Origin: a virus
Reading direction: 5' to 3' (one strand)
DNA length: 35,686 nucleotides
Virus record (IMG/VR): IMGVR_UViG_3300048586_000896
Coordinates: 1 to 35,686 of that record
Position numbers and translations under genes: made by a program
Notes under the pieces: model-generated
What the model was told of the DNA's origin: nothing
The model's database searches: none
Seen by the model: only the letters and a program-made list of their open reading frames with translations
Shown here: in pieces, positions 842 through 31,666 of the stretch
How positions within the stretch are numbered: the first letter of the stretch is position 1
Layout of the letters: each line of letters begins with the position of its first letter

Positions 842-1060
842 GGGGGGTGAGAACCTGCCAGGACGACAGGTCGGAACGCTTTTAAGGGTCTCCCCTCTGG
901 ACAGCACGTCCGCCCCCGGCCATAAAGGTCGGGATCGGAGCCGCGCCGCCAAGCGCGTCCGTTGTGCCGAAATCGGCACTCTCGCCCGCTCCCCTCGCCA
1001 AAGGGGAACGACCTCGTCAAAGGTCTATCGGGCACAGTCCTAGTCCGGGTTCTCACACCC
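842..1060 (+). ncRNA. Structured RNA element, copy 1
   Basis: A closing helix P1 pairs 842-855 with 1048-1060 (TGAGAACC/GGTTCTCA plus flanking G-C pairs and one bulged A). Inside it P2 pairs 860-864 with 1037-1041 (AGGAC/GTCCT). Local hairpins follow: 899-902/908-911, 915-921/927-933, 942-946/953-957, 964-969/974-979, 990-995/1002-1007 and 1010-1014/1021-1025. Three of them show related hexaloops, CGCCAA, CGCCAA and CGTCAA. Another stem with a GCAA loop (1100-1115) lies 39 nt downstream. A second copy at 22345-22570 changes both sides of several helices yet keeps pairing. The plus strand is favoured because G919 pairs with U929 as a wobble, which would be an A-C mismatch on the minus strand. 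This is one base pair of evidence, so the strand is tentative. It sits in a divergent gap, 111 nt before the next rightward gene. Family unknown; could be an antisense, protein-binding or leader RNA. Confidence 0.75.
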
Positions 1061-1986: not shown

Positions 1987-2253
1987 ATGGCTGGAGAAGT
2001 AGAGATATCGGGTGATGATGATCCCTATCCGTTGGGGATCAACAATCTGAAGATCATGCGAGCGATGCTCGTGGAAGAACGGCGCAAGGTAGTGGCGGTT
2101 GGTCTGTCTCTTCGCGAGCACAACGGTGAAGGCGGGCTGCGCGGCGCAGAGATTAAGATTCTTCAGGAGCAGATCGAAGCCGTCGACCGTGCGATCAAGG
2201 ATGAGGAGAGCCTCCAGCCCTCGGTGTACGAAACCAGGGGAATGATCGGCTAA
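1987..2253 (+). CDS. MAGEVEISGDD-family small protein (element A)
   Basis: This 88-residue protein starts MAGEVEISGDDDPYPL and ends in a charged helix with the motif QIEAVDRAIKDE. It shares both ends with the 89-residue protein at 24922-25191 of element B, while the middle differs. That makes it a conserved early gene of this element family. The ATG is preceded by AAGGAGG with 6 nt spacing, so strong translation is expected. The stop overlaps the stop of the convergent gene at 2250 by a few bases. No known domain is recognised; a short coiled coil at the C-terminus is likely. Confidence 0.75.
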   Translation: MAGEVEISGDDDPYPLGINNLKIMRAMLVEERRKVVAVGLSLREHNGEGGLRGAEIKILQEQIEAVDRAIKDEESLQPSVYETRGMIG

Positions 2254-3377
2254 GCCGCTTCGCAGGTGATCCGCGCGCCGCTCGCCCTGAGCACGTAGTC
2301 CACGACCTCAGGCTTGAGCGTCCGCTTCAGCTGCCATGCCAGCGACTTGGGCTCTTTCCGGCTGGTCAGCGAATTGACCTTCTGCCGGCAGGCTTTGCTG
2401 CAGGTGGTCGACCACGGCATCTTCGAGACATAGGCACCGCCGCACCAATGGCACGTAAGGTGGTGCTCGGCGGGAGCGTAGTTCCTCCTGTGCCAGGCCT
2501 TGCTGGCGACATCGTGCGAGCATCGGTCGGAGCAGTAGATCTGGTGCTCGGTCGCTGGCGTGAACGGCTCGCCGCAGTGCTGGCAGAGCCGCGTTTCGTC
2601 GGCGAGGCGTTCGCGCTCCAGCCGGGCCTTCAGGCGTCCGTCGCACACCTTCGAGCAGCATTTTTGGCGGCTTGTACGCGGTCGGAAGGTCCGTTCGCAT
2701 TCCGCGCACTGAATATCCGGGAGCACCCTCTGCGAGGCGATCTTGCATTCCAGGGTGCAATAGACCTGTTCCGGCCGATCGCTGCGAAACGTGTTGCCGC
2801 ACTGCGGGCAGTTCTTGGTCGGTGCCCTGTCCTTGCTGATGATGCGGATCGCCTCGCGATACACCGCACCTCGATAATTTTCGGGCCGCCACGTGCGGTG
2901 CGCCACCGCCTGCCGCGCACAATCCGCAGAGCAAAAGCGGCGGACACGTTCGAAACGCTCGGCTTCCGGCTGCTCCATCGGCCCCTGACACCACGAGCAG
3001 TGGTCGGGCGAGTCCGTCCACTCGCGCTGGCCCTGTTCCCACGTCGGCCGTTTCAGGCCCAGCAGGCTCTCGGCCTGGGCGACAAGTTCCGCTGCCTCAC
3101 GGTCAGCTCGCGACCATGGCTCCCCCTTCTCGCAGAATGCGGAGCGCAGACCCTGGACCATCGGCGCCTCGTGCTCGAACGGAGAAAACCGCCAGTCGCG
3201 TAGCCGGTCCATCACCCTGTTGATGACGTGCTGGCGCTTCTTGTCCGATAGGATCGGACCCACGGGCGCCAGCCTGATAGGACGCGATTGCCCATAGCGA
3301 AAATCCGAGTAGCCGCTGAAGGCCCCCGGCCCGAAACTCGCCACAACCTCGTCTCGCTGCCTGCGTCGCCTGCTCAT
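2250..3377 (-). CDS. Five-zinc-finger protein at the end of late operon A
   Basis: This 375-residue protein has an N-terminal region of about 140 residues followed by five Cys-rich units of the form C-x2-C, about 15 residues, then C-x3-C: CSWC..CSADC, CPQC..CTLEC, CAEC..CSKVC, CQHC..CSDRC and CHWC..CSKAC. These are typical structural zinc ribbons or knuckles. The tail is basic. A four-unit relative is found at 27359-28282, also directly downstream of a terL-containing operon. The start at 3377 overlaps the stop of the upstream gene as ATGA. A role in nucleic-acid binding is inferred from the fingers and charge; a link to packaging is suggested only by position. Confidence 0.7.
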   Translation of the reverse strand: MSRRRRQRDEVVASFGPGAFSGYSDFRYGQSRPIRLAPVGPILSDKKRQHVINRVMDRLRDWRFSPFEHEAPMVQGLRSAFCEKGEPWSRADREAAELVAQAESLLGLKRPTWEQGQREWTDSPDHCSWCQGPMEQPEAERFERVRRFCSADCARQAVAHRTWRPENYRGAVYREAIRIISKDRAPTKNCPQCGNTFRSDRPEQVYCTLECKIASQRVLPDIQCAECERTFRPRTSRQKCCSKVCDGRLKARLERERLADETRLCQHCGEPFTPATEHQIYCSDRCSHDVASKAWHRRNYAPAEHHLTCHWCGGAYVSKMPWSTTCSKACRQKVNSLTSRKEPKSLAWQLKRTLKPEVVDYVLRASGARITCEAA

Positions 3378-3865
3378 CCGAACACCGCGTCGAACGCCGA
3401 CGGCGTTATGTCCTGCGTCGGCGCTGCCTTCCCCTCGCCTGTGGAGGCATCCAGGAAGGCGACGTCCATCGCGCCAAGGATTCGCCACTCGCCCGGCGTG
3501 AAGGATTCGCCCATCATCTCGGCGCAGGCCTTCATCTCGGCTGCGGGCAGCGGAAGCCAACTGTTCATGCCCGCCTGCCGGCCCCGGTTCATCGCCCAGA
3601 AGGCCTGCCACAGGCGCTCGTCATCATCATCGATATCGGGATCGTTCCCGGCCACCGCCTGCCGCACCGCCCCGCACAGGCCCTCCGCAGCACCCGCCTG
3701 GAGCCGCCGTTCCTCCCGCAGGGCATCCCGCACCTGGTCGATCAGCCATTCGGCCGCCAGCACCGCGGCGACGTTCTCCGGCGTGACGTTCCGGACGTCG
3801 CTGCGGACCTCGACGAGGATGCCGGTCGGAAGGCCGCTGTGCGGGTGCAGGATGTTCACCTTCAC
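3374..3865 (-). CDS. Phage late-operon protein, 163 residues
   Basis: This acidic, helix-rich protein has a GTG start at 3865, three nt after the upstream gene's stop, and its own stop overlaps the next gene's ATG. Its second half contains FTPGEWRILGAMDVAFLDA, a pattern I associate with small phage tail-assembly or late proteins. I cannot place it in a family. Its position just after the tape-measure and Ntn-like genes fits a tail-assembly role, which is inference only. Confidence 0.6.
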   Translation of the reverse strand: MKVNILHPHSGLPTGILVEVRSDVRNVTPENVAAVLAAEWLIDQVRDALREERRLQAGAAEGLCGAVRQAVAGNDPDIDDDDERLWQAFWAMNRGRQAGMNSWLPLPAAEMKACAEMMGESFTPGEWRILGAMDVAFLDASTGEGKAAPTQDITPSAFDAVFG

Positions 3866-3868
3866 AGC

Positions 3869-4618
3869 CTACGCCCTGAGCTTTTTCGCCTCGCGCACCG
3901 CCGCACGGCGCTGCTGGCGGTTCATGCCCGTCGCTTTCAGCGACGTGACGTTGGTGCCGGCGAAGGGGTTGATCTTCTCGCCGATCCTGTCGTCCGGCCA
4001 GGTGTGGATGCGCTCGGTCTGGACGCCGGCCGCGGAGATCGTGGTCAGGTCGATAAACCCGCCGATGATGTAAGCCGCCGCGGTCAGACCGTCGGCATTG
4101 ATGCCCTTCTCCCGGCGCATAATCTCCATCAAGCGAACGCCACCATCCCGCAGCGTTCCGGCCGCGGCGATGGGCGCATGAATGTGCCCCACCGCTCTCT
4201 CGTGAGTGATACCGCATACGACTGTTTTCCGGGTGCTGTAGAGCTTCCAGCCTTCCACGAAACCGGGTTCATCGGCGGTGCGGAAATAGTAGACGATCGG
4301 CCCGTCCGCCTCCGAGAAGCCGGCCACGCAAACATCGGAGGATTGGCCGGGCGGCATCTGCCGGGCCATGCCGGGAAGCATGGCCCCAAATACAAGCATC
4401 GCGGCATCGAGGCCGCCGCGCAGGATCGCCTCGGTGAGTCCGGCGGCTATTTTCTTGCCCCAGCCGACATGCCCGCGGGAAGTGATCGCCACGCGATGGC
4501 CGGGTACCAGCGTTACCTTGCGCTCGAGGCGGCGCAGCACGCCGTCGCCGTCATAGCCCGCCCCGTCCGTCAGCATCTCGACGCGGTCGGCAAAGCAGGT
4601 TGCCATGTAGAAGCTCAT
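3869..4618 (-). CDS. Ntn-hydrolase/proteasome-beta-like phage protein
   Basis: This 249-residue protein begins MSFYMATCFADRVEMLTDGA, followed by a charged strand and AITSRGHVGWG. The run of a short N-terminal strand, DG turn, basic RKV strand and small-residue G turn resembles proteasome-beta/HslV-type Ntn hydrolases, in which a Thr, Ser or Cys is exposed as nucleophile. T7 or C8 would be candidates here. This is a fold-level guess from sequence layout. The C-terminus is basic (MNRQQRRAAVREAKKLRA). ATG at 4618 overlaps the upstream stop as ATGA, so translation is coupled to the tape measure gene. Confidence 0.55.
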   Translation of the reverse strand: MSFYMATCFADRVEMLTDGAGYDGDGVLRRLERKVTLVPGHRVAITSRGHVGWGKKIAAGLTEAILRGGLDAAMLVFGAMLPGMARQMPPGQSSDVCVAGFSEADGPIVYYFRTADEPGFVEGWKLYSTRKTVVCGITHERAVGHIHAPIAAAGTLRDGGVRLMEIMRREKGINADGLTAAAYIIGGFIDLTTISAAGVQTERIHTWPDDRIGEKINPFAGTNVTSLKATGMNRQQRRAAVREAKKLRA

Positions 4619-6450
4619 GCTGCTTTCTCCTGTACAAAGGCGGCCGCGACCATCGCGGCGATTTTTTCGGGAGGCAGATCGAAGATCGGCTCGACCACGG
4701 CATCAACCCAGTCCCAGACAGACTCCTTCGCGCCCTTGAAGATGCCGGCTGCGACCTGCCCGATAGTGCCGAGAAGGTCCTTGACCTGCTCGTAGCCGTC
4801 CATCTGGCGGGCGATCTCTTCGTTGATCCGGATGTCGGTGGCGAGCCGCTGGCCGAGCTGGGTATTGATGTCGACGCCGACGCTGCGCAGCTCGGCGTGT
4901 ACACGCTGCTCCACAGGATCGCGCATAAGCTGGGCGCGTTCGAACAAGAGGTCTTTCTGCAGTTCGATCACCGCGTTGAACCGCCGCTCTTCCTCGGTCT
5001 CCAACTTGGTCGCGTCGGCACTCCGCTGCCGCGTCTCGACGCTGCGCCGGGCCGCCTTCTCCGCCTCGTCCCGCTCGATGGTTTCGCGGGCGAGCTCGTT
5101 GGCCTGAAGGCGGGTCAGCTCGACGCCCTCGCGCTGGGCGTCGGCAAGGATTCGCTCGGTCTCCGCCATCTCGCGCCGCTGGTCCGCCGTGAGCTTCAGC
5201 TCCTCGCGGAAGCGCTTGATGAACTCCGCGGCCTGGTCGATCGACTGCTCCTCCTCGATCGTGATCGTCGGCAGGTTCGTCACCCCGCCCGTTTCGCCGA
5301 TCGTGCCGCGGCCTGCGTTGGCGAGGATGCGCGCGATCTCCTGCTCCATCTCGGCGCGGGCCTTCGCCAGCTCCTGTGTGGCCTCGATCGCATCGAAACC
5401 GAGCTTGCGCTGGTTCTCGATCGCGTCCTCCAGGATCTTGGCGCGGCGCTCGAGCCCGATGAGGTTGGCCCTGCCGCTGGCGAACTCCTGCGTCTCGCCG
5501 GCGCGTGCGAGCGACGGATCGATCATGCCTGCCGCGTCGAGCTTGCCGACCAGCCATTGGAACACGTCGGCGTTGCCGATCTCGGCCATCTTGTCGCGGA
5601 GCTGGTCGAGATAGCTGACCGTGTTGAAGATGCCGACCTTCGCCGCGATCTCGAAATTGCGCCACGCCGTCGACCAGCGGCGATCCATCTCGTCGGCCTT
5701 GCGGATCATCTCCTCGTCGAAGATCGCGCCGGCTTCCTCGGCCGAGCGGATGATGCCCTCGATCTCGCCGTCGGCCATCTGCAGGAACTTCACCATGCGC
5801 TCGCCGCCGGTGCCGCCGAACAGCTCGTCGAAGATGCGCGTGCCCGCCGCCACGTCCTTCAGTCGCTGGGTGCGGGCGATCAGTTCCTGCATCAGCTCGG
5901 AGGGCTGCTTCAGCCGGGTCCGGATATCCTGCTGCGACATCCCGAGTCGCTTGAACGCGTCGGCCGCGCTGCCCTTCCCTGTCGACACGAACTCGTCGGC
6001 GCGGATGTTCAGTTCCTTGAACGCGTCGGTGAGCGCGTCGATCGGCACGCGCGTGGTCTCGGCCACCGCCTTCCACTGTTGGAACGCGCGCACGCTGAGA
6101 CCCGCCCGGGCCGCCTCGTCGCCGAGCTGCGCGACCTCGCGCACCAGGCCGCGCACGCGCGTCACGATGCCCTCGACACCGCCGGCCGTGAGCCCGCCGA
6201 CAATGCCCACGGCAAAGGCCTTGCCGTAGCTGCCGATCTTCAGGGAGGCCTGCGCCAGCGCCTGGTTGATCCGCGACGTGGCGTTGACCATGTCGCGTTC
6301 CATCGCCTCGGTGGCGGTCCTGCTGCCGCGGCGCATGCGCTGGTAGCTGCCGTCGGCGGTCCCCGCCGCCTTCAGCATGTTCTTCTCGAAATCGCGGATG
6401 CGCGCCTCGAGGAGTACGATCAGGCGTTCGGCATCGGTCTCACCGGCCAT
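4615..6450 (-). CDS. Phage tail tape-measure-like protein
   Basis: This 611-residue protein is mostly alpha-helical with long charged, coiled-coil-prone stretches (for example residues 380-500). A small hydrophobic glycine-rich segment, AFAVGIVGGLTAGGVEGI, lies near residues 77-94. Tape-measure proteins have this build and set tail length by spanning the tail tube. At 611 residues it would specify a short tail. GAGGTGAG precedes the ATG. It lies directly downstream of terL, eight nt away, instead of after the tail-tube gene, which is unusual. Element B lacks a counterpart. Confidence 0.75.
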   Translation of the reverse strand: MAGETDAERLIVLLEARIRDFEKNMLKAAGTADGSYQRMRRGSRTATEAMERDMVNATSRINQALAQASLKIGSYGKAFAVGIVGGLTAGGVEGIVTRVRGLVREVAQLGDEAARAGLSVRAFQQWKAVAETTRVPIDALTDAFKELNIRADEFVSTGKGSAADAFKRLGMSQQDIRTRLKQPSELMQELIARTQRLKDVAAGTRIFDELFGGTGGERMVKFLQMADGEIEGIIRSAEEAGAIFDEEMIRKADEMDRRWSTAWRNFEIAAKVGIFNTVSYLDQLRDKMAEIGNADVFQWLVGKLDAAGMIDPSLARAGETQEFASGRANLIGLERRAKILEDAIENQRKLGFDAIEATQELAKARAEMEQEIARILANAGRGTIGETGGVTNLPTITIEEEQSIDQAAEFIKRFREELKLTADQRREMAETERILADAQREGVELTRLQANELARETIERDEAEKAARRSVETRQRSADATKLETEEERRFNAVIELQKDLLFERAQLMRDPVEQRVHAELRSVGVDINTQLGQRLATDIRINEEIARQMDGYEQVKDLLGTIGQVAAGIFKGAKESVWDWVDAVVEPIFDLPPEKIAAMVAAAFVQEKAA

Positions 6451-6458
6451 GGCTCACC

Positions 6459-8078
6459 TCATGCATAAGCCCACTCCTCGACGTCCTCGCTGGCATCGTC
6501 GTAGCTGGAGCGGCTGCTGTCCCCGGCCGCGCAGCGCGCCACCGCCATCGCCGCAGCTACCGCGCCGTCGATCCGGTCGGTGCTCTTGCCCTTGTGGAAG
6601 GACTTGTTCCCGGCCTTGTCGGTCTCGACGGCGATGTTGTCGAAGTTCCACCGGAGCACCGGATGCCCGCCGTGGCGGAAGCGGCGGCCGACGATCGCCC
6701 GCTCCAGTTCGCGGATCGCGGGCGCCATGGTGATCCACCCCTGACGCATCTCCACGACCGGGAACCCATCCTCCTGCAGGTTGGCGATCATGTTGCGGCC
6801 CATGTGCGGGTCGAACGCGACCTCGCGCACGTTGAAGCGGGCGCAGAGCTCCCGCACGTGGTCCTCGACGGCGCGGTAGTCGATCACGTTGCCGGGCGTG
6901 GCGGTGATGTGGCCTTCCTCGGCCCACTGCGGATATGGCACGCCGTCGCGGTCGGCGCGGCCGCGCAGATTGTCCGCCGGGCAGAAGAACCACGGCTTCA
7001 CCTGAAAGCCGTCGTCTCCGTCACGCCAGCAGGCGATGATCGCCGTGAGATCGTTGACGGCCGACAGGTCGACCGCGAGCCAGCACGGCTCTTGGCTTCC
7101 CTCCAGGTCCTCGTCGTCCACCGCCCCGGCACCCTGGTCGTAGATCATCATGTCGACGAACGGATCGGTCGAGTGGTCGAGCCAGACGTTCAGATGCAAC
7201 TGGCGGAAGGCGTCGCGCTCGCCGGGGCGGTGCTCGGCCTCGCGCGCGGCGGCGCGCAGCCCCTCGATGTCGGGGAAGCCGTGAGCCAGGCCGGGATTGA
7301 CGCGGTGCCACACCGCCTCGTCGCGCCAGTCCGCATCGGCCGGCGTCTCGAAGAGGATCGGCAGGAACGTCGGATCGTCGATCTCGCCCCGGGCGACCTT
7401 GCGGGCGTAGTCGACGAGATCGTAGGCGATGTTTTCCTGCCCACGCCCGGCCGTGGTGATGACGATGCCGAGGGAACCGGGCACCTTGCGCTGCCCGGTT
7501 CGCAGCACATCCCACAGCTCGCGCTTCTTCCAGGCATGGATTTCATCGTAGAGCGCGAACAGCGGTGTGCGGCCGTGCTGCGTCCCGGCATCGGCCGAGA
7601 TCGCCTCGAGGAACGCGCCGCTGCTCTTGTTGACGAAGCGGTTCTTCGAATCGACCAGCCGCATCAGGCCCTCGATCTTCGGGTGCGCCTGGATGATCCC
7701 CATCGCCTCGTCGTAGGCGATACGCGCCTGCTTGCGGTCGGAGGCCGCGAAGATCGATTCGCCGCCCGGCTGTTTCTCCGGGCCGATGGTGTGCAGCAGG
7801 CCCAGCGCCGCACCGATGCTCGTCTTCCGGTTCCCGCGGGGCAGGAGGATCATGACCGTACGCACGATCCGGCGGCCGTCCGTGTGGCACGGGCCATAGA
7901 CCCGGCGCACGATGCGCTCCTGCCATTCCGGCAGCTCGAAGGGCTGGCCGGGCAGTCGCGATTTCGGGTGCCGCAGCAGGCCGAGGAAATCGACCGCCCG
8001 CTGTCCGTAGCCGAACGGATCGTCGATCGGCGAGCCGTCGAACAGCCACTCAGGATATGAGGTTGCTGAAGAGGTCAT
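6459..8078 (-). CDS. terL: Terminase large subunit (element A)
   Basis: The 539-residue product is the ATPase-nuclease that cuts and pumps phage DNA into the prohead. The N-terminal ATPase shows a Walker A variant PRGNRKTS at 80-87, a Walker B end FALYDE at 174-179 with the catalytic acid E179, and the coupling motif ITTAG near 207-211. The C-terminal RNase H-like nuclease has acidic residues D337 (LAVDLS), D423 (AFDPHM) and D504 (RIDGA). This matches the HK97-type Terminase_1 family in length and order. Start at 8078 aligns with the start of the paralogue at 29883 (both lead into a YxxW/DWxxDG motif). It overlaps terS by 29 nt. Confidence 0.95.
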   Translation of the reverse strand: MTSSATSYPEWLFDGSPIDDPFGYGQRAVDFLGLLRHPKSRLPGQPFELPEWQERIVRRVYGPCHTDGRRIVRTVMILLPRGNRKTSIGAALGLLHTIGPEKQPGGESIFAASDRKQARIAYDEAMGIIQAHPKIEGLMRLVDSKNRFVNKSSGAFLEAISADAGTQHGRTPLFALYDEIHAWKKRELWDVLRTGQRKVPGSLGIVITTAGRGQENIAYDLVDYARKVARGEIDDPTFLPILFETPADADWRDEAVWHRVNPGLAHGFPDIEGLRAAAREAEHRPGERDAFRQLHLNVWLDHSTDPFVDMMIYDQGAGAVDDEDLEGSQEPCWLAVDLSAVNDLTAIIACWRDGDDGFQVKPWFFCPADNLRGRADRDGVPYPQWAEEGHITATPGNVIDYRAVEDHVRELCARFNVREVAFDPHMGRNMIANLQEDGFPVVEMRQGWITMAPAIRELERAIVGRRFRHGGHPVLRWNFDNIAVETDKAGNKSFHKGKSTDRIDGAVAAAMAVARCAAGDSSRSSYDDASEDVEEWAYA

Positions 8079-8463
8079 TTTGCTTTTCTGGGGGCGCCTG
8101 GAAGGCCGGCTTCGACCGCGACGCGGGCGTGAGGCCCAGCTCGACGGCAAGCCGCATGATCGTCTCGTTCGCCTTGCCGAGCAGCGACACGGCCGGGTTC
8201 TGCTTCAGGATCCCGTCCTTGCCCGAGGGGATCAGCACGCCGTGCGCGTCGATCGCCTTCTGCGCCTCCCGGGCGTTGTGCATGGCCATGACGTATGCGT
8301 CGACGGAGCCGCGCATTGCGTCGGTCAGCACCTTGCGCTCGGTCAGCTCGGCCATGACGCTGGTCCACTCGTCGGCCATGGCGGCGGGGATGTGCAGCGG
8401 CACGCCGGGCACGTAGTCGAGCCCATCCTCGATCACCCGCAGCTCGGCCTTGCGTCCCTTCAC
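8050..8463 (-). CDS. terS: Terminase small subunit, P27 family (element A)
   Basis: The 137-residue product recognises the packaging site and hands DNA to TerL. The central helical part (VLTDAMRGSVDAYVMAMHNA) and the tail LGKANETIMRLAVELGLTPA are characteristic of the P27-family small terminase. The GTG start at 8463 is supported twice: GAGGAGG lies 7 nt upstream, and it overlaps the preceding gene's stop as GTGA. It directly precedes and overlaps terL. Confidence 0.9.
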   Translation of the reverse strand: MKGRKAELRVIEDGLDYVPGVPLHIPAAMADEWTSVMAELTERKVLTDAMRGSVDAYVMAMHNAREAQKAIDAHGVLIPSGKDGILKQNPAVSLLGKANETIMRLAVELGLTPASRSKPAFQAPPEKQNDLFSNLIS

Positions 8464-8777
8464 GGCCGCACCTCCTCGCAGCGCAGCTCGAGGCCGCGGC
8501 GGCGGCCGATCTCCTTCACCTCTCGGATGTCGAGGTTCCTGCCACCGTAGACGACGCGGTGCTGCGTGGTGACGCCGTCGAGCCACCGGGTGCGGAAGAT
8601 CACGGCCAGCGCCTCGGTCTCGCCGTAGGCGCGCAGGTATTCCTCGGTCGACATCTGCACGAGCTGCGCGCGCACGGTGGCAACCAGCGCCCAATGCTCC
8701 ACGGGCGTGCCGTCCGGCTCGACCGTGTTGCCGAAGCTCTGGATCTGGATTTCCCGGTCGAGGCGGCCCGCGCGCAT
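8460..8777 (-). CDS. Head closure / head-tail adaptor protein
   Basis: This 105-residue protein begins MRAGRLDREIQIQSF and is rich in beta strands, with the TVRAQL and RWLDGV motifs seen in SPP1 gp16-like stopper or head-closure proteins. These form the ring under the connector that holds DNA in the filled head. Length is typical. Translation is likely coupled: the upstream stop is one base away and its own stop overlaps the terS GTG. Confidence 0.8.
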   Translation of the reverse strand: MRAGRLDREIQIQSFGNTVEPDGTPVEHWALVATVRAQLVQMSTEEYLRAYGETEALAVIFRTRWLDGVTTQHRVVYGGRNLDIREVKEIGRRRGLELRCEEVRP

Positions 8778-8778
8778 G

Positions 8779-9186
8779 TCATGCCTCGCTGACGACGGCC
8801 TCGACGGTGACGACGGCGTGCGCCGTCTCCCCGTCCGGATCGCGCAGGAAGCGCATCCCGCTGACGAAGCAGTCACCGAAGAAAAAGCTGTTCTCGGCCG
8901 GAATAGCTTTTTCGTGGATGGCCGCGCGCACCGCACCCGCGATCTGCTTCACCCCCGCGAGGCCAGGCTCCTTCTTCCAGATATGCAGCGTGGCGTAGAT
9001 CCGCTGCGCCTTGCGGTCGATCCGGCCCTCGTCGACCGACTGCGCCTCGCCGATGATGATTGCAGGATTCGGCGCGGGGCGCGCATTGCGATCGAGGATC
9101 GAGCCAGCCGGCACCAAGGCGGTGACCGCTGCCGTCGCGACGAGGCGGGCGCGGATCGCAAGCTGCAGGGCATGGTCTGCGCTCAT
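8779..9186 (-). CDS. Tail completion protein, DUF3168 type
   Basis: This 135-residue protein has the DUF3168 layout: an N-terminal helix (LQLAIRARLVATAAVTALV), a short strand-rich segment around PAIIIGEAQS, and a C-terminal half with HIWKKEPGLAGVKQI. The family (SPP1 gp17-like) caps the tail at the head-tail junction. ATG at 9186 overlaps the upstream stop as ATGA. Confidence 0.8.
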   Translation of the reverse strand: MSADHALQLAIRARLVATAAVTALVPAGSILDRNARPAPNPAIIIGEAQSVDEGRIDRKAQRIYATLHIWKKEPGLAGVKQIAGAVRAAIHEKAIPAENSFFFGDCFVSGMRFLRDPDGETAHAVVTVEAVVSEA

Positions 9187-9617
9187 CCCTTGCCCCAGTT
9201 CTTCCGCACCGCGCGGCCGACAGCTGACTTGATGGCGGTCGTCGCCTTCTTCCGGTGCAGCCGCACGGCGGGCCAGAAGAAAGGCTGCGCCGCGGCATGC
9301 GCGGTGCCGTACTCGACCAGGTGGCCGTACCGGACATCGCTGTTGCCGACGGTGATCGCGGCGCCGTTGGGCGGCACGATCATGCTGCCGCCGGGCTGCG
9401 AGTATTTCGGGGTCTGCCCGCGCGGGCCCGTAACGGTGATGCTCTCCTTGAGGTCGCCCTGGTCGACCGGAACCAGCGAGCGCATGGTGGCGGCCATCGC
9501 GCCCGCCTGAGTGATCACCGTCTTCAGCGCTGCGTCCTGCACGACGAGCGGGATGCTGGCGAGCCGCTGACGGAAGCGCGCCGCGGAGCGCTCGGCCTCC
9601 CAGCGGTCATTCCCCAT
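9183..9617 (-). CDS. HK97-gp10-family head-tail protein
   Basis: The 144-residue product has the gp10 signature: a helical N-terminus, then MRSLVPVDQGDLKESITV, and near the end GHLVEYGTAHAAAQPFFWPA. The family acts in head-tail joining or tail termination. Start at 9617 follows GAGG by 9 nt and overlaps the upstream gene by 11 nt; an upstream start at 9638 lacks a comparable signal. Confidence 0.85.
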   Translation of the reverse strand: MGNDRWEAERSAARFRQRLASIPLVVQDAALKTVITQAGAMAATMRSLVPVDQGDLKESITVTGPRGQTPKYSQPGGSMIVPPNGAAITVGNSDVRYGHLVEYGTAHAAAQPFFWPAVRLHRKKATTAIKSAVGRAVRKNWGKG

Positions 9618-9933
9618 CGTCGTCGTCCTCGGCGGCATAGGTGTAGTTGCGGTGCTCGGCGAGGATCTCGGGCACGCCGAGTGGTAGCGCCTGCCCCGTG
9701 AGGCCGATCAGCGTCGCCTCGCGGTTCTCGTAGAGATGCGTCGCGACGAGGTAGACCGCGTGCTCCAGGTCGGCGGGAGCGCCGTCCGGAAGGATGTCAT
9801 CGTCGTCGAGGGCGTAGCCAAGCTGCTTCTCGACCATCTTCGTCGCCACCGACAGGAGGCGCGTCAGCAGCGCGTCATCGGCATCGCCGGTGACGTTCGC
9901 CTGCGCCTTCAGGTCGGTGAGCGACAGAGCCAT
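9607..9933 (-). CDS. Head-tail connector, gp6-like
   Basis: This small acidic 108-residue protein opens with MALSLTDLKAQANVTGDADD followed by DALLTRLLSVATKMVEKQLG, the two-helix pattern of HK97 gp6-like connectors that dock below the portal ring. The C-terminus is a run of acidic residues. GAGG lies 8 nt before the ATG. The element B counterpart (31001-31615) is a longer member of the same class. Confidence 0.8.
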   Translation of the reverse strand: MALSLTDLKAQANVTGDADDALLTRLLSVATKMVEKQLGYALDDDDILPDGAPADLEHAVYLVATHLYENREATLIGLTGQALPLGVPEILAEHRNYTYAAEDDDDGE

Positions 9934-9943
9934 GAAGTCAGCC

Positions 9944-10348
9944 TCAGATGGTCACGTCCGGATCGACGATCTTCATGATCAGAATCGCGGTCGTCTTCGC
10001 GATGCCGATCAGGATCACGTCGTCACCGCTCTCGACGTCGGCGAGCGGGCCGATGCTGCCCGGGGTCGGCCCGAGGTAGTAGGCGGTGCCCGCCGTCAGC
10101 GTGGCGCCGATCGTGATCTCGCCGCCCGTCTGGACGGCGAGCGGCTGCCCGTCGGCGGCGCCGTGGAGCGCGATGCCGTGCACCTGCTTGAGGCCGGCGC
10201 CGTCAGCGTCGGAGAGGACGTACTTGCCCGTCGTGCCGTCGCGGAACACTGCCTGCCCGGCAGTGATGGTGGCGCCGGCGACGCCCTGCTGGACCTGCGC
10301 GGCCGCGCCCTGCTTGACGTTGGCCGCGGTGATGGAAAGAGCTGCCAT
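9944..10348 (-). CDS. Probable capsid decoration or tail-associated protein
   Basis: This 134-residue, beta-rich, Ala/Gly/Thr-rich protein has no charged helix. Repeated short strands (VAGATITAGQAVF, GGEITIGATLTAGTAYYLG) resemble the DUF2190-like capsid cement and small phage surface proteins. It lies between the tail-tube gene and the connector. The assignment rests on composition and position, so it is only probable. Confidence 0.6.
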   Translation of the reverse strand: MAALSITAANVKQGAAAQVQQGVAGATITAGQAVFRDGTTGKYVLSDADGAGLKQVHGIALHGAADGQPLAVQTGGEITIGATLTAGTAYYLGPTPGSIGPLADVESGDDVILIGIAKTTAILIMKIVDPDVTI

Positions 10349-10363
10349 GCTACGGTTCTCCTG

Positions 10364-10843
10364 TTAGGCCGCCGCGGACACGCGGACGATGTTGCTGTCG
10401 ATCTCCAGCGTCGACTGGAGCTGCTGGACGGTGTTCGCGCCGCCATGCTGCTCGGCCGCCGAGAGCACGTAGGCGATGAACAGGCGCTCGGACGGGGTGC
10501 CGCCGGTGGGCGCGTCGTTGAAGACGAGGCGGAACGCGAACGAATCCTTCGACTTCTCCGCGGCGACCAGCGCGAGCTGGCCCGCGTCGGAATAATCGAG
10601 GTCGGTCACCACCTGCATGGAGCCGGCGTTGCGCGTGCCCTTAAGCTTGCGGGTGCGGCCGGAGCCGACCTGGTCGGACGTGATCAGCTGCGCGGAGTCG
10701 CCGAGGGAGCCGAGATCGGTCGTGCCCTTGATCTCGGTCCAGGCCTCGGCGTTGAAGTCGGCGGCGACGAGGTCGGTGCCGGCGAAGGCTTTGGCTGCAC
10801 CGATGTACAGCTTCGAGCCGGCGGTTGCGAAAAGCTTGCTCAT
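10364..10843 (-). CDS. Phage major tail (tube) protein
   Basis: This 159-residue protein carries features of siphophage tube proteins: an early AWTEIKGTTDLGSLGDSAQL segment and a beta-rich second half ending in a short Ala tail. Tube proteins of this class run about 140-160 residues and polymerise into the tail tube. AGGAAAGGA precedes the ATG. Its start overlaps the stop of the HNH gene as ATGA. Element B has no counterpart. Confidence 0.75.
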   Translation of the reverse strand: MSKLFATAGSKLYIGAAKAFAGTDLVAADFNAEAWTEIKGTTDLGSLGDSAQLITSDQVGSGRTRKLKGTRNAGSMQVVTDLDYSDAGQLALVAAEKSKDSFAFRLVFNDAPTGGTPSERLFIAYVLSAAEQHGGANTVQQLQSTLEIDSNIVRVSAAA

Positions 10844-11187
10844 GTCTCGTTCCTTTCCTGTGCCTGCTTCCAGGAGGAGTGGCAGGGCGTGCAGAGAGCC
10901 TGGAAATTGGTCCTGTCGAGCCGGCGGTGCGGCGCGGTGCGGATCGACACTACGTGGTCGACGACGGTGGCCCTGCCGCCGCAGCGGCGACAGGATGGAT
11001 AGGCGGCCAGGTACTCGCGGCGCGCCTTCTCCCATTCCGAATCGTAACCGCGCTCCCGTGCCGTCGGCCGCTGCGCGTCATGGCGGGCCTTCCGCTCACG
11101 AGCGGCAGCAGCGGCCTTCGGGCACCGCTCGCCCGACTTGTGGACGCCGCCGCAGTGACCGCAGACCCGGGGAGCGCGGACGGGCAT
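10840..11187 (-). CDS. HNH endonuclease
   Basis: The 115-residue protein has an N-terminal Cys cluster (C9, C12, C22) and a C-terminal HNH nuclease: zinc ligands C66-x2-C69 and C99-x2-C102, with active-site residues D77-H78, N94 and H103. Phage HNH proteins of this size often stimulate terminase cleavage at cos, and usually lie beside terS. Here it lies between a capsid-adjacent gene and the tail-tube gene. Its start is 2 nt after the upstream stop. Confidence 0.9.
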   Translation of the reverse strand: MPVRAPRVCGHCGGVHKSGERCPKAAAAARERKARHDAQRPTARERGYDSEWEKARREYLAAYPSCRRCGGRATVVDHVVSIRTAPHRRLDRTNFQALCTPCHSSWKQAQERNET

Positions 11188-11189
11188 CG

Positions 11190-11579
11190 TCAGGCGACCG
11201 GAGCGATGGCCGGGTGACCCAGAACGAACACCGCGCCGGCGGCGATCGACGTGCCCGAGGTCTTCGTGATGACGGCGCGCACGTAGCGCTTCGACCCACG
11301 ATAACCGAGCCTGTAGATCGTGCTCGCGGCGAGGCTTTCCGGCAGCGCCGCACCGACCGTGTCGGCCGGGTCGACGTCGTCGAAATCCTCGTTCACCGTC
11401 GTGTCGCTCTCTTCCAGCGACATGACGTACAGGCCCGAGCCTGCGATCGCGCCGGTGTTCACCACCAGCATCGCCGAGCCGTAGCCCTTGAGGTCGACGG
11501 CAGCGCCCGCCAGCGTGGCGGACTGGACGGCCGGCACCAGCGAGGCGACGATGGCGAGGTTGGAATGAAGGTCCTTCAT
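11190..11579 (-). CDS. Conserved capsid-adjacent phage protein (element A)
   Basis: This 129-residue, beta-rich protein lies immediately downstream of the capsid gene. Its second half (YVMSLEESD, then YRLGYRGSKRYVRAVI, ending in GHPAIAPV) is shared with the protein at 31846-32262 in the same position of element B. A decoration or vertex role is plausible from position and beta content, but no family is recognised. Start ATG at 11579. Confidence 0.7.
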   Translation of the reverse strand: MKDLHSNLAIVASLVPAVQSATLAGAAVDLKGYGSAMLVVNTGAIAGSGLYVMSLEESDTTVNEDFDDVDPADTVGAALPESLAASTIYRLGYRGSKRYVRAVITKTSGTSIAAGAVFVLGHPAIAPVA

Positions 11580-11590
11580 GGTGCTGCTCC

Positions 11591-12808
11591 TCAGCTCGCC
11601 GCGACCTTGAGCAGCTTGATCGCCCGGCTGTCGCCGAGCCCGCCGCCCACGCGCGAATAGGTGTCGTAGAGGATGGTGCCCTTGACGGTGACCGCGTCGC
11701 GCTCGACGCGCAGGCCGTGGCGGTCGACCACGACGTAGCCCTGCTTGAAGTCACCGAAGGCGGCGATGATCTTGTTCTCGCCGATGTCCTCGAGGTGATC
11801 GTCGATCATCACGGGGTAGCCGAGGATCGAACCGTTCTCGGCGTTCTCCACCAGGTTGCCCGTGGCGGCCCACAGGAAGCGCTTCGCGGTGTCCTGCAGC
11901 TGACGGAAGCGGATATACGTCGCGTTGTTGCAGAGCAGCGTGGCGTTGGCGCGGAACCGGGGATGCAGGGTCAGCACCAGGGCAACGAGCGCCTTGGCCA
12001 GGTTGTCGTCGGTCGGCGCGGAGGCGTGCCCCGCCGGGACATACTGGAGCTGACCCCACGGACGCGTCGCGTCGGCCGTGTTGACGATGGTGTAGTCGAG
12101 GATCCCGCGCGGCTTGCCGCCCACGCCGTTGCCAGTCCAGAAGGCGTCGCCCTCGGTAAGCGCGAAGTCGTTCGCCACCCACGTCTGGAACCACGACGCG
12201 ACGTCGAAGGACGCGTCCTCGACCAGGTGGCGCGTCGCCGCCGGCGCGGCATACATCTCCTGCACGGTGTAGGTGTGCTTGATCAGTTCCGGCCGGGCGG
12301 TATCCTGCGGGCGGTCGCTGTTCTCGTTGACCCACTGCGCGCCGCGGTTCCCGGTCGAGTAGAAGCGCTCGTACGAGTTGCCGGAGATGGTGACGACTTC
12401 CGCCAGCGAGCGAATCGGCGACACGTCGGCCAGCATGTTGCGGATCGTCGTGTCGACGGTCGGCAGGATGAAGAAGCCGCCGTCGGCATCCGGCGTAGAA
12501 CCGGCCGCCTTGATCTCCACGTCGGTGCCCGTGCGGATGAACGAGGCGAGCGCCTTCTTCTCGATCTCAGCCTGCTCGTCCGGATCGGCATTGCCGCCGG
12601 GACGGTTGGCCTTCTTCTCCAACTCGGCCAGGCGGTCCTGAAGCGCCTTCAGGTCGGCGCTCGGAGCCGCCTTCTTCAACTCCTCATCGAGCTTCCTCCG
12701 AAGCTCCTCGAGCGACTTCGTGACGAAGGCGACCGGATCGTCGTCGTCGCCCTTCGTTATGATGATGGCTGCGGAGCCGCGCAGCGCGGTCTTCGACATG
12801 TGACGCAT
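11591..12808 (-). CDS. HK97-fold major capsid protein
   Basis: This 405-residue protein has an N-terminal charged helical scaffold (delta) domain with coiled-coil segments (residues 25-75, such as LKALQDRLAELEKKANR). The HK97 fold follows, starting near residue 105 (ADGGFFILPTVDTTIRNML). Family landmarks include SPIRSLAEVV, WTGNGVGGKPRGIL and GSILGYPVMI. The delta domain is normally removed by the prohead protease encoded just upstream. The start at 12808 follows AAGGA by 6 nt; the stop of the protease gene is one base away. Confidence 0.95.
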   Translation of the reverse strand: MRHMSKTALRGSAAIIITKGDDDDPVAFVTKSLEELRRKLDEELKKAAPSADLKALQDRLAELEKKANRPGGNADPDEQAEIEKKALASFIRTGTDVEIKAAGSTPDADGGFFILPTVDTTIRNMLADVSPIRSLAEVVTISGNSYERFYSTGNRGAQWVNENSDRPQDTARPELIKHTYTVQEMYAAPAATRHLVEDASFDVASWFQTWVANDFALTEGDAFWTGNGVGGKPRGILDYTIVNTADATRPWGQLQYVPAGHASAPTDDNLAKALVALVLTLHPRFRANATLLCNNATYIRFRQLQDTAKRFLWAATGNLVENAENGSILGYPVMIDDHLEDIGENKIIAAFGDFKQGYVVVDRHGLRVERDAVTVKGTILYDTYSRVGGGLGDSRAIKLLKVAAS

Positions 12809-12809
12809 G

Positions 12810-13313
12810 TCAGTTCCTTCCGATCTGCGCGGTCGCGCGGTTGATGGCGGCGGCGAGCTGGAGCGCTGCCACCGCCGACTTGGCCGAGGTCACCTTCGCG
12901 CCGGGATGCATGCCGACGGTCACGAGGCTGACTTCCAGAAGCTCGAGGGACTTGATCAGCCGGCCGCCGCCAGGGCGCGGCTCGGCCTTTCCGGTGAGGA
13001 AGCCGACCGAGAGCCCCTTCACGGCGCCGGCGCGCACAAGCGCGCGGACCTCGCGGGCGCGCGCGACTTCCTCCACGAGGAGCTTGCCCCTGATGTGCCA
13101 GGCACTGCCCTTGTCCTCCGCGCTCTCCCACGCCCCGATGGGATCGCCCATGTCATGGAAGGCCAGCATCGGCAGCGGGAACGCGGCCTTGGCAAAGGCG
13201 CCCGGCGCGATCATGTCGCCGATGCGGTCGGCCTGGTCGTACTTCCACGCGATGCCGGAGATCGCCCCGGCATCGTCGGCGAGCAGCTTCGTCTCGAAGT
13301 AGAGACGGTCCAT
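12810..13313 (-). CDS. HK97-family prohead protease
   Basis: The 167-residue serine protease (MEROPS U35 type) trims the capsid scaffold domain during head maturation. H53 (AFHDMG) and S102 (GLSVGF) are the catalytic pair by family alignment, with an acidic partner in LELLEVSLV (E124 or E127). Length is typical. Its ATG overlaps the stop of a 25-residue ORF (TGATG), and its end abuts the capsid gene. Confidence 0.93.
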   Translation of the reverse strand: MDRLYFETKLLADDAGAISGIAWKYDQADRIGDMIAPGAFAKAAFPLPMLAFHDMGDPIGAWESAEDKGSAWHIRGKLLVEEVARAREVRALVRAGAVKGLSVGFLTGKAEPRPGGGRLIKSLELLEVSLVTVGMHPGAKVTSAKSAVAALQLAAAINRATAQIGRN

Positions 13314-13390
13314 CAGCGGCCACCCCGAAGCGCGGCGGCGAGGGCCAGCATGCTCACCGAGACGAGCAGCGCCTTCCGGTGATCACGCAT
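13313..13390 (-). CDS. Possible 25-residue membrane peptide
   Basis: A 26-codon frame starts at ATG 13390, overlaps the upstream gene by 8 nt and ends in TGATG, sharing one base with the protease start. The product has a basic start (MRDHRKA), a hydrophobic core (LLVSVSMLALAAAL) and RGGR at the end, so a single short membrane helix is possible. GAGGGCGG lies about 5-9 nt upstream. It fills what would otherwise be a gap in a tightly packed operon. It may instead serve only to couple translation to the protease. Confidence 0.45.
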   Translation of the reverse strand: MRDHRKALLVSVSMLALAAALRGGR

Positions 13391-13817
13391 CGGTGCCGCC
13401 CTCGCGCGTCGGAGCGGAGGCCGGCTTCTCGTCCTCGTCGAAGTACGGGCTGCGATCTCCGGCGAAGGCGTCGATCTGGGAGCGGACCCAGGTGCCCGCC
13501 TTCAGCAGCCGCGTGAAGTTCTCCCGCGTCAGCGGCAGGACCTGCCCGGCCTCCTTCACCTCCCATTCGAGTACCAGCTCGAACAGGAAGCTGATCATCA
13601 GCTCCTCCCGGCCCTCAGGCGTACCCCCGTTCTTCCGGTTCTGGAGCTTGGTGAATTCGCGCTCCATCCGGAAACGGGCCTTGCGCGCCTTGTCGCTGTC
13701 GGGACCGACGAGCTTCACGCGGATGCCGACGGGATCGCCGTTGGTCGGGTGCAGCAGGTCCCACCAGTGGCCTGCGTCCTGATCGGAGGCGAGCTTCGAG
13801 AGTTCACTCAGATCCAT
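13383..13817 (-). CDS. Phage protein, possible tail assembly chaperone
   Basis: The 144-residue protein opens MDLSELSKLASDQDAGHWWD. Its C-terminal part (GQVLPLTRENFTRLLKAG and WVRSQIDAFAGDRSPYF) resembles tail assembly chaperones, where a similar motif ends the short product. Such genes usually lie before the tape measure gene; here it sits between portal and protease. The assignment is therefore tentative. Start at 13817 overlaps the portal gene by 14 nt and follows GAGGA. Confidence 0.6.
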   Translation of the reverse strand: MDLSELSKLASDQDAGHWWDLLHPTNGDPVGIRVKLVGPDSDKARKARFRMEREFTKLQNRKNGGTPEGREELMISFLFELVLEWEVKEAGQVLPLTRENFTRLLKAGTWVRSQIDAFAGDRSPYFDEDEKPASAPTREGGTDA

Positions 13818-15030
13818 CGTCTTCCTCTTCCGGCTTGGGTGTGGGGACCGGCTTCGGCGCAGGCGTTGCGCCGGGCTGGGAAGCCCCCGTGTTGGGGTTG
13901 GCGAACTTGTCGAGGTCGGCCGGGCCGCGCGGCATGCCCATCCACGCGCGCGCCTCGTTCGGGTTCAGAACGCGGCTGGCCACGAGGCTGTTGATCGCGG
14001 TGGCGAGCACCGAGAGGTCGACCTTTGAGAAGTCGTCGCGATCGAAGCGAATGGCGAACCGGGCACGGTCATCCCGCAGGAACAGGGCGCGCCGGAACGC
14101 CGATTCCAGCGCCTTCAGCCACGGCTCCAGGCAGAGCATCAGGAACAGGCGCTGCATCTCGGCGCTATTGCTCCAGGTCGCCCTGCTGAGCTCCCCCAAC
14201 ATCACGGCTGGGATGTTGAAGGCGCGGGCGATCTCCTGCAGCTGGAAGATGCGCAGCTGCTGGAACTGCGAATCGACGCTGTTCAGCGTCATCTGCTTCC
14301 ACTGCGCGCCGTCCCACAGCACGCCTGTCTTACCCGCGTTGTCCGCGCCCTCCATCGCGGCCTTCCAGCCAGCGAGCATCTTGCGCACGCCGTCGTCGCC
14401 GACATTCTTCGCCGTCTCGATCACGCCGCCCGGCCGCGCGCCCTTGCCGAACAGTCGCGCCGCGTGGCGCTCCATCACGATCGCGACGGCGATGGCTTCG
14501 CGGGCCAGCGTTACGGGAGCGCGGTCGAAGGCACCGCGAAGATGCACGATCTGCTGCGCCGGGATGGCCTGCCCGCGAATGCGATAGATCGGCTCCCCGC
14601 TCTCCTGGCTGACATCGGCGCCGATGTGGCCCGGACGGTAGCGGATGATCTCGACCGGCTCACCGTTCACCCAGTTCACCCAGGCGAGCCCGCCGGCATC
14701 GCGGCAGAGCGCGTCGACGACGAGCTGGCGGATCAGCTCGAACCCGCTGGTCCAGTCGTTGGCCTGGTCGCGCAGCAGGACCGCAGCCGGATTGTCGCGT
14801 GCCTCGGTCTCGGTACCGTCGGCGGCGATCTCCACGACCTTCACGTCGAGGCTGGCGGCGGCTTCCGCGATGGTGCGAACCGCGGCGGCGACGGCGGGAA
14901 CCCGCAGCGCCGCCTCGACCGATACGGCAACGCCGGTCGAGGTCGGCGCGCCACCCCCGAGCATGTCGAGGATCTGCTCGTCGGTGAGCGCCTTCTTCTC
15001 GGGCCAGAGGAAACGAAGCGGGTTGCGCAT
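13804..15030 (-). CDS. HK97-family portal protein (element A)
   Basis: The 408-residue protein forms the dodecameric ring through which DNA enters the head. Landmarks of the family are VPAVAAAVRTIAEAAASL (44-61), VHLRGAFDRAPVT, and ARAFNIPAVMLGELSRATWS in the clip/stem part. The Pro-rich, acidic C-terminus is a normal variation. It is the first gene of late operon A; the operon's promoter should lie in 15031-15275. Confidence 0.95.
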   Translation of the reverse strand: MRNPLRFLWPEKKALTDEQILDMLGGGAPTSTGVAVSVEAALRVPAVAAAVRTIAEAAASLDVKVVEIAADGTETEARDNPAAVLLRDQANDWTSGFELIRQLVVDALCRDAGGLAWVNWVNGEPVEIIRYRPGHIGADVSQESGEPIYRIRGQAIPAQQIVHLRGAFDRAPVTLAREAIAVAIVMERHAARLFGKGARPGGVIETAKNVGDDGVRKMLAGWKAAMEGADNAGKTGVLWDGAQWKQMTLNSVDSQFQQLRIFQLQEIARAFNIPAVMLGELSRATWSNSAEMQRLFLMLCLEPWLKALESAFRRALFLRDDRARFAIRFDRDDFSKVDLSVLATAINSLVASRVLNPNEARAWMGMPRGPADLDKFANPNTGASQPGATPAPKPVPTPKPEEEDDGSE

Positions 15031-17677: not shown

Positions 17678-18193
17678 ATGTCGATCCTACGCAAACCACT
17701 CAGCCAAATCACCGCCGCTGATATTCAAGCGCTCTGCGACAACGGCGCCGCCGAAACCGCGGAGCTTGAGTTCAAGGGGCAACTGCCAGCGGAGGACTCG
17801 CGTTCGCGGCCGGACCCATGGTTGAGCGGCGGCAAGCTTGGCGACTACGCGAAGCGCAAGATTATCGCCGAAATAGTCGCCTTCGCGAACGCGCAGGGCG
17901 GAACGCTGGTTCTCGGAGTCGAAGAAACTGACAGCCAGCCTAGACAGGCCACCAAGGCCAATGCTTTGCCGCGCTGTAGGGATCTCGCCAGGCGCATCGT
18001 GGATATTTGCGAGGATATGATCGAGCCGCGCTTGCCGCTCATCGCCGCAGAAGGAATTCCCTCGTCCGACACGGCCGATGATGGTTTCATCATCGTGCGA
18101 GTCGCATCCTCTGCGGATGCGCCGCACCGATCCAAGGGCGACAGAGAGTACTACGTTCGACGCGGGGAGGTGCGCCGCCAACACGCCGATTGA
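17678..18193 (+). CDS. AlbA_2-domain protein, probably truncated
   Basis: The 171-residue product contains an AlbA_2 (Schlafen-like) domain: ETAELEFKGQLP near residue 26, then IVAFANAQGGTLVLGVEE around 66-83, and HRSKGDREYYVRRGE at the end. In the usual family the domain is followed by a further region. Here the frame stops a few residues after the YYVRRGE motif, at the junction with the S49 remnant, so the gene has probably lost its 3' end. It starts 25 nt after the DUF6161-like gene and shares its lower GC content. Related proteins have been proposed as regulators or nucleases; the role here is unknown. Confidence 0.7.
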   Translation: MSILRKPLSQITAADIQALCDNGAAETAELEFKGQLPAEDSRSRPDPWLSGGKLGDYAKRKIIAEIVAFANAQGGTLVLGVEETDSQPRQATKANALPRCRDLARRIVDICEDMIEPRLPLIAAEGIPSSDTADDGFIIVRVASSADAPHRSKGDREYYVRRGEVRRQHAD

Positions 18194-18721
18194 GCCCACT
18201 TCACCCGTCGTCGGTATCCAGATTTCGTCGGCGGCCGACGCAATGGCATAGCCTGCGGAGGCGGCAGCTTCGTTCACATGAGCCCACACAGGCTTGTCGG
18301 CGGCTGCGGACAGGGCCCGAAGGTTCGCGCACAAGTCGAAGCAACCGGCCGCCTCCCCGCCCTGCGTGTCCAGTTCGAGCATCACGCCATCGACCGCGCC
18401 GTCATCCATCATTTCGGCAACGGACGCGTGGATCGCGGCGTAGCTCATGAGCCCGGACTCCGCGTCCAGCCATGAGCCGCGGCGCACTAGCGTGCCGATG
18501 ATCGGCAGCACCGCGATACGCTCTTGCTGCAGGAGATAGCCGCCGCCGGAGTAGCGTCTCGCACCGGTCTTCTTCGGCTTGGGTGACGCCTCAGACGCGG
18601 GGGTGGTAAACCCGTCCAGAATGCGAGGGCCAATGGCCTTGAGCACCGTGTCGGCCTTCCTGGCCGAAAGCAACAGCGGGTTGTCGAAGACGATACCGGC
18701 GAGGTGAGCAAGGTCGCGCAT
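18182..18721 (-). pseudogene. S49 head-maturation peptidase, 3' end lost
   Basis: About 180 residues of an SppA/lambda gpC-type S49 serine peptidase are visible: MRDLAHLAGIVFDNPLLL, then IAVLPIIGTLVRRGSWLD, VDGVMLELDTQGGEAAG and the active-site segment AAASAGYAIASAADEIW with S155 as likely nucleophile. After GSIGVL the similarity ends, exactly where the AlbA_2 gene on the other strand finishes. The frame stays open into antisense sequence only by chance. The C-terminal catalytic lysine region is missing, so the enzyme is probably inactive. The start at 18721 fits family members; a GTG five codons upstream is possible. Confidence 0.8.
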
Positions 18722-18767
18722 TGCACGATGTTGCACACCCTCGCCGCAAGCTGAATGCGGGTTTCCG

Positions 18768-19096
18768 CTAGCGCATCGAGCGCAGCAACGCGACCACGTG
18801 TTCGGGGTCGAGGTTCGCGGCGATGGCATGGTCGGCGCGCAGAAGGTAGGCCGCCTTCCGGCGTACATCGCGCAGGCTGTTCACCGGGAACTCTAGCAGT
18901 CGCTTTAGCGCGATGGGCTCGGCAGCACTTAGCGCATCGTTAGCCGGGTCGTCATCGGAAAGCACGTTGAGGCGGTCATAGACCGAGCGGTGAGCTTCCG
19001 AGCCCGCCGAGCATACTCCACGGCCCGGAGGGCGCGAAGATAACGGCGCTCGGCGACACCGCGGCGCTGAACGGCCTGGCGAAAGGTCCGGGTCAT
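18768..19096 (-). pseudogene. Frameshifted small phage protein
   Basis: The ATG at 19096 overlaps the preceding stop as ATGA, and its frame gives a good helix (RQAVQRRGVAERRYLRALRA) that ends early at 18929. A second frame carries a convincing C-terminal part (VYDRLNVLSDDDPANDALSA, then ALKRLLEFPVNSLRDVRRKA) ending at 18768. The two join if one base is shifted near 19000. The whole would be about 109 residues, the size of related phage genes I recall. A sequencing error would give the same picture. Confidence 0.5.
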
Positions 19097-22249: not shown

Positions 22250-22344
22250 GGTAGTCGTCCTGGTCTGGAACCGGCCTTCCACAGCCGGCGGCGCGTCTGT
22301 CGCACTGCAACAGATGAGCCATCATCCGGGGTCGGCCCGGAGCC

Positions 22345-22570: not shown

Positions 22571-22607
22571 ACGGACACGTTCCACCGATTTGCTTAAGAT
22601 TGCAAGA

Positions 22608-31615: not shown

Positions 31616-31666
31616 GGCGGCCTCGTGGGTTGTCGGGGAGCGCGTGTCGGCACGCTCCCCTCTCCG

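Follow-up and report, generated by a model that had tools for sequence, protein, structure and literature searches.

Organization of the locus

The DNA analysed here (referred to as the window) is the whole 35,686-nucleotide (35.7-kb) IMG/VR virus record IMGVR_UViG_3300048586_000896. It embeds two related prophage units with separate terminase and portal genes, the two related but distinct terminase-to-portal modules being located at 2250-15030 and 25645-35017 (minus strand). The modules are arranged as tandem prophages; other IMG/VR contigs of the family are often 15-18 kb long.

Two copies of an element, previously delimited at 842-1060 and 22345-22570, are present in the window, and the segments 836-1062 and 22339-22572 (plus strand) align with 83% identity over 227 nt (E = 1.5e-64). 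The alignment reveals that the differences between the copies fall in stems, with which identical blocks alternate. The closing helix is rewritten on both sides (GAG/CTC in copy 1, GGA/TCC in copy 2), and so are the GTGCC hairpin (GTGCCG-AAAT-CGGCAC versus GTGCACC-ACGC-GGTGCAC) and the downstream hairpin (CTGCCC-GCAA-GGGCAG versus ACGGCC-TTCG-GGCCGT), while the last two hairpins are wholly swapped. The compensatory changes reported in the preliminary description are thus real. The shared segments that it regarded as unpaired turned out to be mostly promoter DNA, including the plus-strand -35 and -10 hexamers.

The element carries three related blocks, referred to as A, B, and C on the minus strand and as A', B', and C' on the plus strand. 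Missing from the preliminary description is a third copy of the A' strand, located about 25-85 nt to the left of the element (796-819 and 22257-22286), where in both window copies it overlaps the ribosome-binding site of the leftward gene. The element with both its putative promoters therefore spans about 795-1122 and 22250-22629, so that the former limits hold as a good core of the element and not as its true ends. The features are the following.

Copy 1
1-789, minus: leftward gene, 262 aa, Tat-signal-like start, ATG at 789, ribosome site AGGA at 797-800; its 3' end is the contig end
796-819, minus: block C, with triplet GAG on minus (CTC on plus); its hairpin overlaps the ribosome-binding site
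844-870, minus: block B, complementary to A and C
884-897, minus: small hairpin, GNRA loop GAGA on the minus strand
898-926, plus: putative promoter, -35 TGGACA (898-903), 17 bp, -10 CATAAA (921-926, within a palindrome)
933-1122, plus: predicted antisense sRNA with putative ends, comprising CGCCAA-loop hairpins, A', and a terminator-like hairpin (1094-1122)
942-957: hairpin CGCGC-CGCCAA-GCGCG (UUGGCG loop on minus)
964-979: hairpin GTGCCG-AAAT-CGGCAC
991-1025: last two hairpins, CGCCAA and CGTCAA loops
1043-1067, minus: block A, 5' end of the predicted leader; its complement A' lies in the sRNA
1068-1096, minus: putative promoter, -35 TTGACG (1096-1091), 17 bp, -10 CAGCGT (1073-1068)

Copy 2
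21599-22249, minus: leftward gene, 216 aa, acidic, of the 'LDDMEPDPDLEP' type common to many copies
22257-22286, minus: block C, GGA on minus (TCC on plus), overlapping the ribosome site CAGGAC
22347-22373, minus: block B
22401-22429, plus: putative promoter, TGGACA (22401-22406), 17 bp, CATAAA (22424-22429)
22436-22629, plus: predicted antisense sRNA with putative ends and a terminator-like hairpin (22603-22629, UUCG loop)
22553-22576, minus: block A
22577-22605, minus: putative promoter, -35 TTGCAA (22605-22600), -10 GAACGT (22582-22577)
19277-20488, minus: chimeric ORF of the operon downstream of copy 2, in which an integrase-like N-terminal half continues in frame into an unrelated primase/helicase-like C-terminus

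Distribution of the element

About 60 further copies were retrieved from alphaproteobacterial prophages, both in IMG/VR contigs and in bacterial chromosomes. IMG/VR contigs with related terminases harbor six more copies, each lying on the strand opposite to the terminase and about 3-5 kb beyond it, and two degenerate-pattern scans of IMG/VR, in which the variable triplet was left free, disclosed more than 50 additional contigs; the nhmmer scores of the copies found by pattern ranged from 65 to 179 bits. Chromosomal copies were confirmed at four loci (L225, L227, L232, and L238), while that at locus L236 comes from the pattern match alone. Since the scans favour copies carrying GTCCGGG...CCCACGGA, divergent forms are under-sampled.

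The BLASTN search of the element against 50,697 phage records gave no match, nor did that of an exact 22-mer of it in IMG/VR; a 16-mer scan of genome contigs returned 50 matches, none of which had the element around it by blastn, and BLASTN matches to plasmids were short, at chance level, and were discarded. The search of about 1,250 genomes and records for multi-copy hosts yielded single copies only, in a few genomes.

The preliminary description could assign the element to no named family, and this was confirmed with Rfam 15 at the gathering cut-off, where the element matched no family in the window or in six loci; the only gathering-level matches in these loci were tRNA genes located away from it. 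Weak matches near copy 2 (E > 0.2) were far below gathering, and the best trace of C4 (c4-a1b1) reached 15.5 bits against a gathering score of 46.7. On the basis of the open-access literature searched, the element apparently represents an undescribed RNA family that is widespread in alphaproteobacterial prophages.

Three matched blocks and a variable triplet

On the plus strand, the right end of the element is A' (GTCCGGGTT-NNN-A..CCC), the left end is B' (GGGGT-N'N'N'-AACC), and C' (CGGCTT-NNN-A.GGCCG) lies about 25-85 nt further to the left of B'. In the leader, A and C have a common variable triplet, whose reverse complement is held by B. The A:B triplet, which corresponds to the closing helix of the preliminary description, is Watson-Crick in 60/60 copies even if all three positions vary, with two to four pair types each (GC/AT/CG, GC/AT, and AT/GC/CG/TA, respectively), in agreement with the selection on base-pairing proposed there. 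Ten apparent mismatches of the regular expression for block B were register errors of the pattern, the right triplet being one or two bases along in all ten. Block C was extracted from 53 copies with a triplet-blind pattern, and in 52 of them the C' triplet equals that of A' (shuffled mean 9.5, maximum 21, in 10,000 permutations). The exception is L181, where the C triplet is mismatched (GCT versus TCT); besides, the second copy of L188 lacks block C.

A second, neighbouring block (e.g., CACTGG/CCAGTG) also matches three ways above shuffles, with run lengths of 6.3 versus 4.0 for A-B and of 7.5 versus 4.8 for C-B. The predicted energy of the A':C duplex is -28.6 kcal/mol within the same element, -24.3 with another element of the same triplet, and -18.3 with one of a different triplet; for the window copies the gap is modest (own -26.4 and -31.0, crossed -24.0 and -23.6). 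These copies are near-identical outside the variable stems, and their triplets differ (CTC and TCC), as do those of the two L188 copies (TTC and TCC). Taken at the level of sequence, the triplet behaves as a fast-changing "password" that appears to be kept matched in three places at once.

In five loci (L195, L215, L187, L167, and L168), the triplet half of block C is tandemly duplicated to the left of B', as if the start codon were preceded by two targets. The L144 element (9337-9547, minus strand) is followed, within about 130 nt past A', by tandem small hairpins with CCAAY loops (CCTCCAACGGAGG, CCCCCAATGGGGG, and CCGCCAATGGCGG), similar to the GCCAA loops of the element. A' also looks like a tRNA T-arm, a likeness that was set aside because it is common to A, B, and C and the tRNAs occupy other parts of the contigs.

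Promoter motifs and strand assignment

The two window copies fold better than dinucleotide shuffles on the plus strand (z = -3.8 and -3.2) as well as on the minus strand (z = -4.8 and -4.3); both strands out-fold the shuffles, so that the fold alone gives no verdict on the strand in use. The same holds for RNAalifold (-96.5 for plus versus -102.9 for minus, with nearly equal covariation terms), while the loops of the terminator hairpin give no decision for the plus strand. The stems of the CGCCAA (plus)/UUGGCG (minus) hairpins comprise 796 Watson-Crick, 4 G-U, and 16 A-C pairs. The latter two counts do not clearly point to either strand, and a two-strand model was therefore considered; stems nearly free of the wobbles of either strand are expected if both strands fold.

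Other features are strand-specific. A plus-strand promoter motif lies inside the element in 53/53 copies, with a TGGACA or TTGYAT -35 and a CATAAT-like -10, separated by 15-18 bp (mostly 17-18); its -10 matches 4.1 of 6 positions, versus 2.2 at random positions. Read on the minus strand, the loop of the small hairpin to the left of this promoter is of the GNRA/UNCG type in 39/51 copies, as against 3/51 on the plus strand, which is expected if the minus transcript alone covers that hairpin. To the right of A', CTTG is found at a constant distance in 40/54 copies and is mostly separated by 17 bp from the CANNNT hexamer that follows it, so that a leader transcribed from this minus-strand motif would start at A. 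The two promoter motifs are convergent, face to face. Finally, C' complements the ribosome-binding site that precedes the ATG of the leftward gene, in most copies by 8-12 nt, indicating that C belongs to a minus-strand mRNA leader. The terminator of the plus RNA is without a clear U-run in most copies.

The internal plus promoter, the minus-strand tetraloops, and the minus promoter at the right edge, as read from the sequence, thus point to two convergent transcripts with three-way covariation; these would account for all the strand evidence, whereas a single plus-strand RNA would not. Hence, the single structured RNA of about 220 nt initially proposed is not retained.

Genes downstream of the leader

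The first leftward gene is variable, encoding the acidic 'LDALDGDPDLE' protein, a Tat-signal-like protein, or others; the leftward genes of the window matched no family in Pfam and PHROG. Of the 29 copies whose left flank extends over at least 2.5 kb, 20 have an integrase-like ORF there, and 18 of these 20 ORFs run in the direction of the leader; one of them was confirmed by PHROGs (6e-57). No integrase was found nearby in one third of the copies tested (n = 29).

A predicted antisense-driven attenuator

The three-way match, the promoter-like motifs, the position of the ribosome site, and the downstream integrase can be read from the sequence itself. They suggest that the convergent phage transcripts are likely to work as an antisense-driven translational attenuator following the pT181/pSK41 logic, in which two face-to-face RNAs probably decide the translation of the genes leading to the phage integrase. 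The minus transcript would start at A, read through the hairpins, B, and C into the small gene, and usually continue towards the integrase; its leader, of about 270 nt, would end at the ribosome-binding site of the small gene. In the ON state, B would be engaged by A, so that the ribosome site in C is more accessible, while in the OFF state B would pair with C and close it. The plus sRNA, starting from the internal promoter, would be complementary to A and the hairpins; once bound to the leader it would remove A, letting B close C. The triplet in A, B, and C would set which sRNA acts on which leader. Transcription of both strands, the ends of the RNAs, the direction of the effect, and its spread to the integrase gene, the last presumably through polarity, are predicted features of this model.

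In order to describe these states, ensemble folding was performed on 54 leaders, each extending from A to shortly beyond the ATG; the calculation ignores co-transcriptional kinetics, Rho, and proteins. In the free leaders, the predicted probability of A:B pairing is 0.65 and that of B:C 0.24; when the leaders are covered by the antisense, B:C rises to 0.64. Concomitantly, the predicted unpaired probability of the ribosome site decreases from 0.45 to 0.28 (Wilcoxon p = 5e-8), dropping by more than 0.1 in 31 of the 54 leaders and rising in 2. If the whole sRNA stretch except A is covered, the site stays at 0.41, and the prediction is therefore that the antisense works by withdrawing A from B. 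The response is not uniform: B:C already exceeds 0.5 in the free state in 13/54 leaders, and the ribosome site of copy 1 barely shifts (0.41 to 0.38).

The strong fold of the leader and the A-B-C alternatives, which alone suffice for the three-way match, would also fit a switch acting only in cis, in which just the minus transcript matters and its blocks re-fold with transcription or a bound protein, the plus promoter being an operator or an unrelated promoter. We consider this unlikely, since a complete plus promoter with two -35 versions occupies the same place in 53/53 copies, and the stems avoid A-C as well as G-U pairs, which is not needed for a minus-only RNA.

Comparison with known systems

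The antisense-driven attenuator proposed here shares loop-loop antisense recognition with the I-complex plasmids (ColIb-P9 Inc/RepZ, IncB/O, and IncK RNAI), and its 5'-UUGGCG/CGCCAA loop pair is that of ColIb-P9. In those plasmids, however, a pseudoknot activates repZ, whereas the element has three repeated blocks, several UUGGCG hairpins, and a phage setting. The repABC ctRNA is a single short hairpin RNA located between repB and repC. In IncK plasmids, one loop base can change the compatibility group (PMC10724649). The same predicted logic as in the element is found in RNAI and the rep leader of the Staphylococcus plasmid pSK41, where the countertranscript binds the leader well upstream of the start codon and thereby induces a stem in which the ribosome-binding site is masked (PMC5703833). 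Nevertheless, pSK41 controls a plasmid replication gene with an RNAI of about 83 nt and two stem-loops, no sequence relation to the element was found, and an A-B-C specificity triplet is not known in pSK41. In pT181 and pIP501, binding of an antisense RNA makes the leader form an alternative stem close to the start codon (PMC5703833), but these act chiefly by transcription termination on plasmid rep genes and not on a phage integrase operon; no terminator U-run was seen next to B or C of the element, downstream of which the place of a plasmid rep gene is taken by a variable small gene and the phage integrase. Countertranscript control is documented in the same bacterial class as the element by the repABC ctRNA of alphaproteobacterial plasmids (PMC2783167). 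The repABC genes are absent from the setting of the element.

C4 of P1/P7 and the CI RNA of P4 rely on the complementarity of two blocks to sequence surrounding the ribosome site of a phage operon, the blocks of P4 CI being ordered seqA-seqB-seqC. The A-B-C order of the element resembles the latter and, as in these systems, complementary blocks lie on both sides of the antisense block, A and C flanking B. It might thus be supposed that a B-carrying fragment is cut from the minus leader and targets in trans the A and C blocks of its own phage or of an incoming one, and the sub-threshold c4-a1b1 resemblance goes in this direction. We nonetheless hold this to be quite improbable: no Rfam C4 match was obtained, B is at the far end of a 220-nt leader rather than in an RNA of about 70-90 nt, and the element has a separate countertranscript promoter motif, which to our knowledge C4 and P4 CI lack. 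The latter are processed from the same-strand leader, while the antisense RNA of the element would come from a predicted convergent promoter. The earlier comparison with C4-type RNAs was well directed as to the class of mechanism, but membership of the C4 family is not borne out, as nothing reaches the gathering score.

A single structured plus-strand RNA would agree with a plus fold that beats shuffles and with the few G-U pairs that favour this strand at 915-936, but is very improbable, as its 5' third would lie upstream of the plus promoter and the GNRA tetraloops are on the minus strand. Equally remote is a DNA-level element (cruciform, att site, or protein operator), to which the almost purely Watson-Crick stems and the -10 within a palindrome might point, given the three-way triplet match, the overlap of C with start codons, and the strand-specific tetraloops.

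The best reading is that of a new family and a new setting for countertranscript-driven attenuation, which would bring this plasmid-style control to an operon carrying a phage integrase.

Possible role in immunity

A role of the element in superinfection immunity is possible. More specifically, and tentatively, the triplet might represent an RNA "immunity type", the sRNA of a resident prophage silencing the integrase operon of any incoming phage whose triplet is identical; we regard this as rather doubtful. If it were true, RNA loops and not repressor proteins would define which related phages can share a host, and the copies would diversify by joint change of A, B, and C. Co-resident copies carry different triplets in both pairs available (the window and L188), a number (n = 2) too small to serve as a test. 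Since the triplet is kept matched in three places, its specificity can be read from the sequence, which makes orthogonality and cross-immunity directly testable; the element might provide ready-made orthogonal RNA switches for Alphaproteobacteria.

Other genes of the window

The ORF at 17687-18868 (minus) is an in-frame chimera, whose S49-peptidase-like start runs into the antisense of another ORF; this and the chimeric ORF at 19277-20488 resemble junctions formed between the two prophage units by deletion or by assembly. To the right of copy 1 lies a DUF2158 gene (1171-1365, plus), and a similar reading frame (MAEEIKAGDVVQLKSGGPRM...) is located to the left of the element in L206. Directly to the right of copy 2, among phage genes, the ORF at 22694-23287 (plus) encodes a complete homologue of ribosomal protein L7/L12 with both Pfam domains (E = 2e-28 and 3e-15) and an extra C-terminal part, i.e., a phage-borne bL12-like protein.
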